DNA from: Halorhabdus utahensis DSM 12940
Lineage (GTDB): Archaea; Halobacteriota; Halobacteria; Halobacteriales; Haloarculaceae
Assembly (NCBI RefSeq): GCF_000023945.1
Contig: NC_013158.1
Location: 806,001 to 870,000 of the forward strand
Reading direction: 5' to 3'
Length of the DNA: 64,000 nt
A model generated the notes under the pieces. The model searched no databases and was not told the origin of the DNA. It was given only the letters and a program-made list of their open reading frames with translations. The first letter of the stretch is position 1, and each line of letters opens with the position of its first letter. The position numbers and the translations under genes are program-made. Shown here piece after piece: positions 3,906-33,591 of the stretch.

Positions 3906-4008
3906 CGACGGGAGCGTGAGATCGATCTGTTCTCATACAGATTGCTCTACCTGTTTACCGTGACGACGATCCGACTGCAGGCGGTCGATATTGTGATGAC
4001 GTAAACAA

Positions 4009-4080
4009 CCTCGGGCGCGGTGTTGACGCAAATCGGAGATTTGCGAAAGCCGAAAACCTGCGGTTTTCGGAAGCCCGAGG
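4009..4080. repeat. IS end (tnpB side): 72-nt three-way-junction palindrome
   Basis: The outer stem pairs CCTCGGGC (4009-4016) with GCCCGAGG (4073-4080). Inside are two perfect hairpins: CGCAAATC/GATTTGCG (4027-4034 and 4038-4045, 3-nt loop) and CCGAAAACC/GGTTTTCGG (4050-4058 and 4062-4070, 3-nt loop). Spacers are 10, 4 and 2 nt. It starts 14 nt beyond the tnpB stop, where TnpB elements carry the right end and the 3' part of the omega RNA. The same fold recurs at 5862-5933. Confidence 0.85.
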
Positions 4081-4094
4081 CTTTTGTAATTCCC

Positions 4095-5399
4095 TCAGCC
4101 GTGCGCTAGCACTCCCTGCTCGGCAAGCGAGCGGGATGAGGTTGGGCGGCTTACACGCCCCGACCCGGACAGACGCACCAACCGAACCTGCGGCTGGGTT
4201 TTGTGAGTCCGGTAATCCGCATTATTACCGTCAAGTTTCGCCTTCTCGCGCCACGCGATGTTCACCGACGCATTCCGGTCAGCGTGGTCTTGCACCACGT
4301 CACACTCGTCGTTCGGACACCGGAACCGCCGTCCTTGACGATCCCCACGCTCACCACAGCACGAACATGTCTTCGAGTTGTAGTACGCATCCACAGTGTC
4401 CGTGGGAATCTCTCGCCACGTCGCCTTGTACGAGACGAACGTCTCGAACTTGTGGAACGGCAGTTTGTGCAACCGGCGGTTCATATACGACCCGTACTGC
4501 ATTTCCTCGCGAATACCCTCCATATCCTCGAACACGATGACCGGGTTCGGGAACTATTCTGCGAACGCCACGACAGCACGGGAGAGCCGATGCAACACCC
4601 ACTCGGTGAATCGTTCCTCTTTGTCACCGAGTTTCCGGTGGATGCTCGTCTTGCCGTGTTCTTGACAGCGAGTAGTGATGGTGTGGTAGCGTTGGCGTTC
4701 CTGCTTGACTCGTCCGTAGTCAAGGACGAGCGTGCCCTTCGTCCGCATTGTCTCGTGGTCGAGGGCGGTGAGTGCGACGTTGCGCTCGTTGATGTCCACT
4801 CCGACGAGCGTGTCGCTGATGTCGGGGTCGGGCACGTCGAACTCGCGTGTGACCGTGACGTGTAGGTAGTACACGCCATCGCGGTACAGGAGTTCGGCCT
4901 GCCCCACATCCACCTCATCCGACGTGATGGCGTCTCGAAGTTCGTCCATCGCGTCTGGCTCACCCCGAAGGTGGCCTGTTACCTTCTTGTAGGGTTTTGG
5001 GCTGATGCGGACTTGGACGCGGTTCGTGTCGTCGTCCACGGTGAGGCGGTAGCCTTCCGTGTGCGCCATCACGAGCGGGTACGCACCAGATTTGTCCGTA
5101 CTCGGCGGCGTCGGCTTGCCACCATCAGGGTCATCTTGTTCGCGCCACCAGTCAAGGAGTGACTGGTAGGAGTCCCATGTTTGGAGTGCTTTGCCGACGA
5201 CCGCGCACTTGTTGTTCCGCAAGAAGTCGTCGCGATCAACCTCCTGCTGAATCTTAGTGCGCGTGTATCCCTGTTGTTTGAGGTGGATGGTTTGGTTGAA
5301 TATCTCGCGTGAGGCGAGGCGGGCGTCGTGAAGCCACGACCGCTCACCAGACGCTATATGGAGGCGCGTCTGAATCGTCTTCGTGGCTTCTTCACCCAT
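4095..5399 (-). pseudogene. tnpB: IS200/IS605 TnpB (OrfB) RNA-guided nuclease gene with in-frame amber codon
   Basis: 435 codons from the chosen ATG (complement at 5397-5399; an ATG nine codons upstream is also possible). TAG at 4554-4556 interrupts the frame at codon 282; both sides stay in the same frame. RuvC-like residues are all present: Asp in VGVDINERN (about residue 202), Glu in VIVFEDMEG just after the amber codon (about 291), and Asp in QDHADRNAS after a CxxC...CxxxxC zinc finger. The wild-type codon was probably CAG (Gln), as AFAE-Q-FPNP reads naturally. TnpB proteins are omega-RNA-guided DNA nucleases; this copy would be truncated before RuvC-II unless the amber is read through. 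Confidence 0.85.
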
Positions 5400-31715: not shown

Positions 31716-33083
31716 ATGGCATTCCTCGACGACGACTATTTACTGGAGACCGACGCGGCGATCGACCTGTACGACCACATCGCCGACCGACCGATCGTCG
31801 ATCCCCACAACCACATCGATCTGGACGAGATCCTCGCGAACGATACCTGGGACGACATCTGGGCGGTCGAGGGCGCGACCGACCACTATATCTGGCAACT
31901 CATGCGCAAGCGCGGCGTCCCGGAAGCAAAGATCACCGGCGACGCCACCAATCGTGAGAAGTGGGACGCCCTGGCCGAGACGCTGCCGATGATGGCCGGC
32001 AACCCGACCTACGAGTGGCTCCATCTCGACCTCAAGCGCCGCTTTGGCATCGACAAAGAGGTCACCCCCGAGACGGCTGACGAGATCTGGGAGGAGACCA
32101 AAGCCCAACTTCAGACCGACGAGATGCGCCCCCAGGCAGTCCTCCGGGAGATGGACGTCGAGATCATCTGCAGTACTGACGACCCGACTTCCCAACTCCA
32201 AGCCCACGAGCGATTCGCCGAAGAGGTCGAGGACGTCGAACTCCACCCGACGTTCCGACCCGATCGGGGGATGAAGATCGACAACGCCGAGTGGTCGACC
32301 TTCGTCGAGGAACTCGACACCGTCACCGAGGCCGACGTTTCCACCTTCGATGGCTTCCTCTCGGCGTTCGAGGAGCAACACCACTACTTCCGCGAGCACG
32401 GCTGCAAGGCGTGTGACATCGGGACTGGCACGAACCCACATTCCAAGCCCGTCAGCCAGCAGCGGGCGGCGGAGATCTACGACGCTGCTCGCCGCGGTGA
32501 GAACCTCGACCCAGCGGCCGTCGAGGACTTCTGGGCGTTCATGCTCGAGTTCATCGGCGAGCTGAACGCCGAAGCGGGCTGGGTCACCCAGCTGCACGTC
32601 GGGGCCGTCCGAGACTATCGCGAGTCGCTGTTCGACGAGGTCGGCATCAACGCCGGCGGCGACGTCGCGACCCAAGACGTCGATATCGTCGAGGACATCG
32701 ACTACTTCCTCGATGCCTTCGACGGAAAAATGGAGATCGTCCTCTACACGCTGGATCCGACCCACTACCCGAGCGCGACCGTCGTCGCCCGAGCGTACCC
32801 GAACCTCTCGATCGGGCCGGCCTGGTGGTTCCACGACTCGCCGATGGGCATCGAGGAACAACTCGAGGAGGTCGCCTCGATCGACCTGCTGGCCAACCAC
32901 GCCGGCATGGTCAGCGACTCCCGGAAAGTGGTCTCGTACGACTCGCGCTTCGAGGTGTTCCGCCGCTCGCTCGCGAACGTCGTCGGTCGGATGGTCGACC
33001 GTGGCCAATTGTCGATGGACCGCGGCAAGGACCTCGTCGACCATCTGGCGTATGACCGGCCGAAGGAACTCTACGGGTTCTGA
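31716..33083 (+). CDS. uxaC: Glucuronate isomerase
   Basis: 455 residues, an amidohydrolase-fold uronate isomerase. Marks: IVDPHNHIDLDEI near residue 27 (metal ligands), CSTDDPTSQLQAH near 150, HPTFRPDRGM near 178, QLHVGAVRDYR near 295, and AWWFHDSPMGIEEQL near 370. Converts D-glucuronate to D-fructuronate. In an operon with uxuA. A 500-bp palindromic region follows before aguA. Confidence 0.93.
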   Translation: MAFLDDDYLLETDAAIDLYDHIADRPIVDPHNHIDLDEILANDTWDDIWAVEGATDHYIWQLMRKRGVPEAKITGDATNREKWDALAETLPMMAGNPTYEWLHLDLKRRFGIDKEVTPETADEIWEETKAQLQTDEMRPQAVLREMDVEIICSTDDPTSQLQAHERFAEEVEDVELHPTFRPDRGMKIDNAEWSTFVEELDTVTEADVSTFDGFLSAFEEQHHYFREHGCKACDIGTGTNPHSKPVSQQRAAEIYDAARRGENLDPAAVEDFWAFMLEFIGELNAEAGWVTQLHVGAVRDYRESLFDEVGINAGGDVATQDVDIVEDIDYFLDAFDGKMEIVLYTLDPTHYPSATVVARAYPNLSIGPAWWFHDSPMGIEEQLEEVASIDLLANHAGMVSDSRKVVSYDSRFEVFRRSLANVVGRMVDRGQLSMDRGKDLVDHLAYDRPKELYGF

Positions 33084-33149
33084 ACTAGCACACTCCGGTA
33101 TTCGTGCCGGGAAAACAACTGCAGAGACGACGGAATCGGTGACAGACAG

Positions 33150-33506
33150 CCTGAAAGCCCCGGCAGGCTTCGCTCCCAGGCCTCTCACGGCTTCGCCGTT
33201 CGAGGAAACGTGGCCTCGCTTCGCTCGGCCACGCACTCGTTGCGCGCGCTTGCTTCGCTGCGCGTGCTTACTTCGGCCGGGTTCGCGTAGCCTGCCGCCC
33301 CTTTCATTCCCACCCGAGCAGTTGATCAATCGGGCTACGTGGGTGGGAATGAAAGGGGCCGCTCGCTCGATCCGTCCCGGACGACGTAAGCAGCGAGGGA
33401 CCGCGGTCCCTCGGGCCGTGCGAGCGGCGTAGCCACGAGCAGAGACCGCAACGGAGTGAGGACCGCAGCGAGTCCCGGACGGATCGAGCGAGCCGGGGCT
33501 TTCAGG
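33150..33506. repeat. 357-bp nested palindromic element (three-branch cruciform)
   Basis: Outer arms CCTGAAAGCCCCGGC (33150-33164) and its complement (33492-33506) close the region; 15 bp, perfect. Inside lie three adjoining branches: 33162-33169 with 33289-33296 (8 bp), 33297-33315 with 33341-33359 (19 bp, perfect), and 33361-33381 with 33473-33493 (20 of 21). The middle branch has a loop with TTGATCAA; the third holds a 20-bp perfect palindrome at 33394-33413; the first has further TTC-loop hairpins at 33187-33199 and 33209-33233. No coding frame is credible. The gene-free stretch is 33084-33591. Confidence 0.85.
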
Positions 33507-33591
33507 TTGTTCGGAATGCTCCCAATCTACTGGAAAACGTGCTTAACGTAAATTATCTTGTAGCCAGCGCGTTACTGACTGGCAGCAGCCC

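Follow-up and report, generated by a model that had tools for sequence, protein, structure and literature searches.

The spacer between uxaC and aguA of Halorhabdus utahensis (genome of a single 3,116,795-bp contig) raises the question of what kind of entity is represented by the extensive base pairing at positions 33150-33506 of the 64-kb window (i.e., the whole stretch of DNA that was analysed). The initial annotation described it as a nested cruciform and considered a non-autonomous mobile element, a large structured RNA, or a site for a structure-specific protein. The location proved correct: one flanking gene encodes a glucuronate isomerase (UxaC, PF02614), the other a GH67 alpha-glucuronidase. 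Both genes are convergent and point at the element. The nested cruciform itself corresponds to a four-way fold, the coordinates of which were right within 1-2 bases, and its parts (none of them assigned to a strand) are the following:

33145-33161, no strand: left outer arm, with terminal stem GACAGCCTG and core AAAGCCCC; pairs with 33495-33511, the core being conserved in 117 copies.
33162-33296, no strand: branch 1, a hairpin closed by GGCAGGCTTCGC / GCGTAGCCTGCC; in the family, its stem sequence is free and its pairing is kept.
33297-33359, no strand: branch 2 (the middle branch), with a perfect 19-bp stem GCCCCTTTCATTCCCACCC (33297-33315 / 33341-33359); the most conserved sequence of the family.
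33360-33494, no strand: branch 3, a hairpin with a covarying stem (21 of 22 proximal pairs match).
33384-33442 (boundaries approximate), no strand: probable accessory hairpin module in branch 3, including the palindrome at 33394-33413, as suggested by orthologue alignment.
33495-33511, no strand: right outer arm, with core GGGGCTTT and terminal stem CAGGTTGTT; pairs with the left arm.

Folding of 33150-33506 yielded a z-score versus shuffles of -10.2 for the plus-strand RNA, -9.6 for the minus-strand RNA, and -8.8 for the DNA, and in each case none of the 100 shuffles folded as well. The pairing of the outer arms, initially given as 15 bp, was recovered as a 24-nt arm pair that is 88% complementary (33146-33169 / 33487-33510), in which the outer-stem core consists of AAAGCCCC (33154-33161) paired with GGGGCTTT (33495-33502). 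As described, the three branches touch at their edges, the closing stem of branch 3 is nearly complete, and the palindrome at 33394-33413, CGAGGGACCGCGGTCCCTCG, has no mismatch over its 20 bp. Modules related to 33384-33442 are present or absent at the same place in orthologous copies from other Halorhabdus species. The middle branch indeed has a perfect 19-bp stem, but its loop, stated to be 8 nt long, measures 25 nt and includes TTGATCAA. The absence of a coding frame was upheld as well, since the only long ORFs across the element (32713-33432 on the plus strand and 31740-33329 on the minus strand) are mechanical readings of a GC-rich frame.

When the H. utahensis genome was searched with the element, 28 matching pieces pointed to about a dozen other places. 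The middle-hairpin pattern occurred in 43 of 293 haloarchaeal genomes, with up to 21 copies each, while the reversed pattern gave no matches in the same 293 genomes. Solely haloarchaeal records were found among the matches listed (GTDB genome contigs), and the family spans the Haloarculaceae and other haloarchaeal families. Viral contigs contained no match to the pattern, among plasmids, matches were confined to 11 haloarchaeal ones and were short and partial, and no autonomous long version with the same core stem was seen within the loci examined. Family members are roughly 230-480 bp long and consist of two inverted hairpin units (each about 100-200 nt) around an invariant middle hairpin. 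From outer left to middle, their layout reads AACAGCCAG-AAAGCCCC, variable branch 1, GCCCCTTTCANTCCC(A/G)CCC, and the loop, followed from middle to outer right by the inverted middle hairpin copy, variable branch 3, and GGGGCTTT-CTGGCTGTT. No earlier description of this family was found in the open papers searched, and the core sequence strings were absent from the relevant open literature searched, with one string occurring by chance in two unrelated papers on mouse and human.

The multiple copies, conserved ends, and covarying stems that the initial annotation had foreseen as support for a mobile or RNA element were found across 117 distinct copies. Among them, there is hardly any variation in the middle hairpin and the AAAGCCCC/GGGGCTTT core, the invariance of the middle stem being partly by construction since copies were collected by matching that stem; the sequences of the branches played no part in the collection. 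The 12 junction-nearest pairs of branches 1 and 3 were 91.2% and 91.4% paired, respectively, across 102 and 107 different 5′ sequences in the 117 copies, compared with 53-54% when partners were re-dealt among copies and 32-42% when partners were slid. Most positions of both branches show all four Watson-Crick pair types, and in a subset of 11 copies mutually differing at at least 5 of the 12 bases in both branches, pairing still amounted to 96% and 90%. The terminal 9-bp stem, in turn, varies between genera and is common to the copies within one genome. In haloarchaea, intergenic DNA has a high GC content and often contains short palindromes, so that the structure might in principle be a chance or GC-rich artefact. 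However, the z-scores of about -10, the empty reversed control, and the covariation leave this with practically no probability, and the very existence of copies refutes it.

The branches themselves also change. In orthologous copies from three Halorhabdus species, the closing stems have been kept and hairpin modules have been gained or lost inside the branches. More specifically (loci L289 and L290 vs. L029), the middle loop looks inverted in one of the three copies, and hairpin modules of about 55 nt have been gained within branch 3 of another. At one Haloarcula locus, most species carry the element or its remnants and others have almost no spacer; some of the remnants arose when the DNA between two short repeats (AAAG or GTTCA) was deleted. 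The first Haloarcula "empty sites" with an 8-bp overlap were rejected as such, being deletion remnants between these same repeats. Module gain and loss, loop inversion, and deletions between short repeats are changes that long DNA palindromes typically undergo. For this reason, hairpin-templated correction is the favoured candidate for what keeps the arms paired, and selection acting on the folded shape is a serious alternative.

These observations also bear on the large structured RNA proposed initially, i.e., a transcribed cloverleaf-like fold that would be the selected functional unit, with dispersal as a by-product. Branches 1 and 3 show very strong compensatory covariation, as would be expected from such an RNA, and the complementary 13-nt motifs GGTGCTTACGTCG (branch 1) and CGACGTAAGCACC (branch 3) could pair. 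Nevertheless, G-T (G-U) pairs make up only about 1% of the paired cells in branch 1 and 4% in branch 3, and folding is equally good on both strands, which together indicate pairing in DNA rather than RNA. The loop inversion between orthologous copies and the palindrome-type deletions likewise point to a DNA structure. Moreover, the invariant stems on both sides resemble double-strand recognition, and no Rfam family reached its gathering score for the element, which gave sub-threshold miRNA hairpin matches only. An RNA is therefore improbable.

The proposal of a non-autonomous mobile element is supported by the combination of dispersed copies, IS6-type ends, 8-bp target duplications, and one empty site. 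In some copies, terminal repeats lie further out, about 40 nt beyond the stem, which is also where excess 8-mer matches are located. Of the nine distinct copies in which both ends resemble terminal repeats, six are flanked by exact 8-bp direct repeats (e.g., ATCGAGGA and GCTGATCG in the H. utahensis genome, and GTGCAGTT in another genus). Between the terminal repeats, copies measure 307-477 bp. The H. utahensis copy at C1:2529541-2530017 carries GCTGATCG on both sides, and an empty site was identified in a sister species (...GAACCGCTGATCGACCGCC..., with a single GCTGATCG and without the copy). The same copy is also missing in four further sisters and present in one. Of 286 haloarchaeal genomes, 98 contain the terminal repeat GGTNSTGTTYAGWTNAGC (0 for the control), which also bounds insertion sequences of about 695 bp that encode a PF13610 (IS240/IS6) DDE transposase and are flanked by 8-bp repeats. 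Insertion of IS6 elements duplicates 8 bp of the target, and records exist of two IS6 MITEs, 227 and 336 bp in size (PMC7986276). The family is thus probably a MITE-like, non-autonomous one that has at least partly been moved by an IS6-family transposase. ISH6 was rejected as the helper: its ends begin with GGTCGTGT, yet the longer repeat matches IS6 elements.

Since IS6-type repeats are mostly missing from the copies of Haloarcula, Halosimplex, and further genera, IS6 may not be the mover of all copies. In the 40-60 nt outside their stem, such copies display a 3-nt periodicity in which every third base is C-rich and G-poor. The tails end at CTAG, a tetranucleotide seldom found in these genomes, and 46 of 56 flanks have it in one and the same phase. 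In copies of this second class (e.g., L099, L144, L170, and L171), the periodicity spans about 45 nt between the stem and the neighbouring DNA. At L099 (Haloarcula rara), a tandem array with the 45-nt unit GGGGCTTTCTGGCTGTTTGCGGTCTACTATGCAGCAATCGCTCAC lies left of the copy at 1683-1990, and similar tandem units of 45-54 nt, all multiples of three, were seen at L107, L108, L141, L142, and L144. A protein-coding origin of the tails was rejected, as stop codons are not depleted beyond composition and there is no consistent start or arm-spanning frame. The stop codons of neighbouring genes were likewise rejected as the source of the phase, which is shared solely by genes ending in TAG.

One elaborate core that is kept across copies with different ends exceeds the needs of a plain MITE, and as such counts against the MITE explanation. 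The core might instead be a folded-DNA recognition site, where a transposase, recombinase, or repair/nucleoid protein would bind the extruded cruciform or single-stranded hairpins, and where the structure of the arms would be selected rather than their sequence, by analogy with integron attC sites or IS200/IS605 ends. Integron attC sites have a conserved structure and a free sequence, and the present family similarly has a conserved structure and free arm sequence, although no integrase, cassettes, or attC core sites were noticed. Such a site, which we consider rather unlikely, fits with arms that are paired though free in sequence, with an invariant core at the junction, and with the above-mentioned behaviour of the terminal 9-bp stem. 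On the other hand, copies with IS6-type ends act as ordinary DDE elements with 8-bp duplications, no candidate protein was identified, and hairpin-templated correction would account for the paired arms without selection. It is similarly doubtful that the core serves as a DNA-structure module, either selfish or used by the host, that has been joined to different mobile ends (i.e., the IS6-type ends and a second type formed by the 40-60-nt, phase-locked triplet tails ending at CTAG). Because a putative haloarchaeal protein would in that case act on the shape of the extruded four-way junction or folded single strand, the arms could drift in sequence yet would have to stay paired.

With a MITE-like family as the preferred reading, the flanks of the window copy itself were scrutinized, and neither recognisable terminal repeats nor a recognisable target duplication were found there, the sister-species spacer being too different to define the insertion point. 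A GGAAAAC direct repeat noted by eye on both sides was rejected, as homology with the sister species (also judged by eye) extends past it. In one sister species, the uxaC spacer contains a small lipoprotein-like gene and no cruciform. In a second (L283), it contains a variant-subfamily cruciform (GAAAGCCCT/GAGGGCTTTC), an ISH6 transposon (446-aa transposase, 8-bp repeat CACAAATT), and the same lipoprotein-like gene. The window copy is therefore not common to this spacer in the sisters, and no clean empty site for it was found in these two species, their spacers being too divergent. The H. utahensis genome has one match to PF13610 (IS6-type transposase), at C1:1100840-1101145 in a 139-codon open frame, which is probably a truncated fragment. 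Since this match is only partial, the window copy, probably an old family member with decayed ends, is likely to be immobile. As it lacks recognisable terminal repeats, it is a relative of IS6 MITEs rather than a proven IS6 MITE.

The strong hairpins of the window copy and its position between convergent genes could also suit a bidirectional terminator or mRNA 3′-end stabiliser for uxaC and the GH67 gene, in the manner of REP/BIME. However, of 77 element sites in other genomes, which are mostly tandem or divergent, only 9 lie between convergent genes, vs. 87 of 263 other gene pairs at the same loci. Moreover, the sister-species spacer either has no copy or a different one, and the element is far larger than REP units. 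This role is thus highly unlikely, in agreement with the initial remark that the structure is not a simple terminator.

Compared with known systems, the family resembles the IS6-family MITEs of the archaeal clade in being short and gene-less, in the IS6-type ends and 8-bp duplications of some copies, and in size, with its 307-477 bp overlapping the recorded 336-bp IS6 MITE (PMC7986276). It differs from them in that its core is a long, conserved four-way cruciform whose arms covary, and in that many copies (including the window copy) are without IS6-type ends. The palindrome-associated transposable elements (PATEs) of Haloquadratum walsbyi are likewise haloarchaeal, dispersed, palindromic, and transposase-free, but have near-terminal palindromes related to IS605, without terminal inverted repeats or target duplication (PMC3119063). 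The present family, in contrast, has a central cruciform, and some of its members bear terminal repeats and duplications of 8 bp. Its core sequence does not occur elsewhere within the 64-kb window, which contains an IS605-type RNA match, i.e., Rfam sot2652 (sense overlapping transcript; 3967-4216, minus strand, 155.7 bits) at the 3′ end of an apparent IS605-type tnpB. The SMR-A small mobile repeats of Haloquadratum (about 110 bp, with terminal repeats of their own) insert into the palindromes of other elements (PMC3119063), and the accessory hairpin modules described here similarly appear to sit inside branches. These modules, however, are about 55 nt long. The closest published elements (PATE, SMR, and other Haloquadratum MITEs; PMC3119063) differ from the family. 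Finally, REP/BIME sequences are 20-40 bp palindromes tagged GTAG or CGTC and associated with a RAYT transposase (PMC3733652). They share with the family the inverted pairs of hairpin units and the many intergenic copies, but the units here are about 100-200 nt, and some copies have 8-bp duplications.

We infer that copies with IS6-type ends would be moved by an IS6-family transposase acting in trans through a conventional DDE reaction. Their long inverted repeats may then evolve as DNA hairpins, with the arms gaining and losing modules and the middle loop inverting, and some copies would shed the palindrome through deletion between short direct repeats. Arm mismatches would be repaired to perfect pairing with the other arm as template, unless selection acts on the folded shape. 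The window copy would be an old member with decayed ends.

Taken together, the family quite likely represents an ancient group of non-autonomous mobile elements of the MITE kind with an unusually conserved cruciform core, and the window copy most likely belongs to its old, immobile members. The family is widespread among haloarchaea and conserves structure rather than arm sequence. It accounts for complex intergenic folds that could otherwise be mistaken for RNA genes or terminators, and provides more than 100 natural variants for asking whether long DNA palindromes are kept paired by selection or by hairpin-templated repair.
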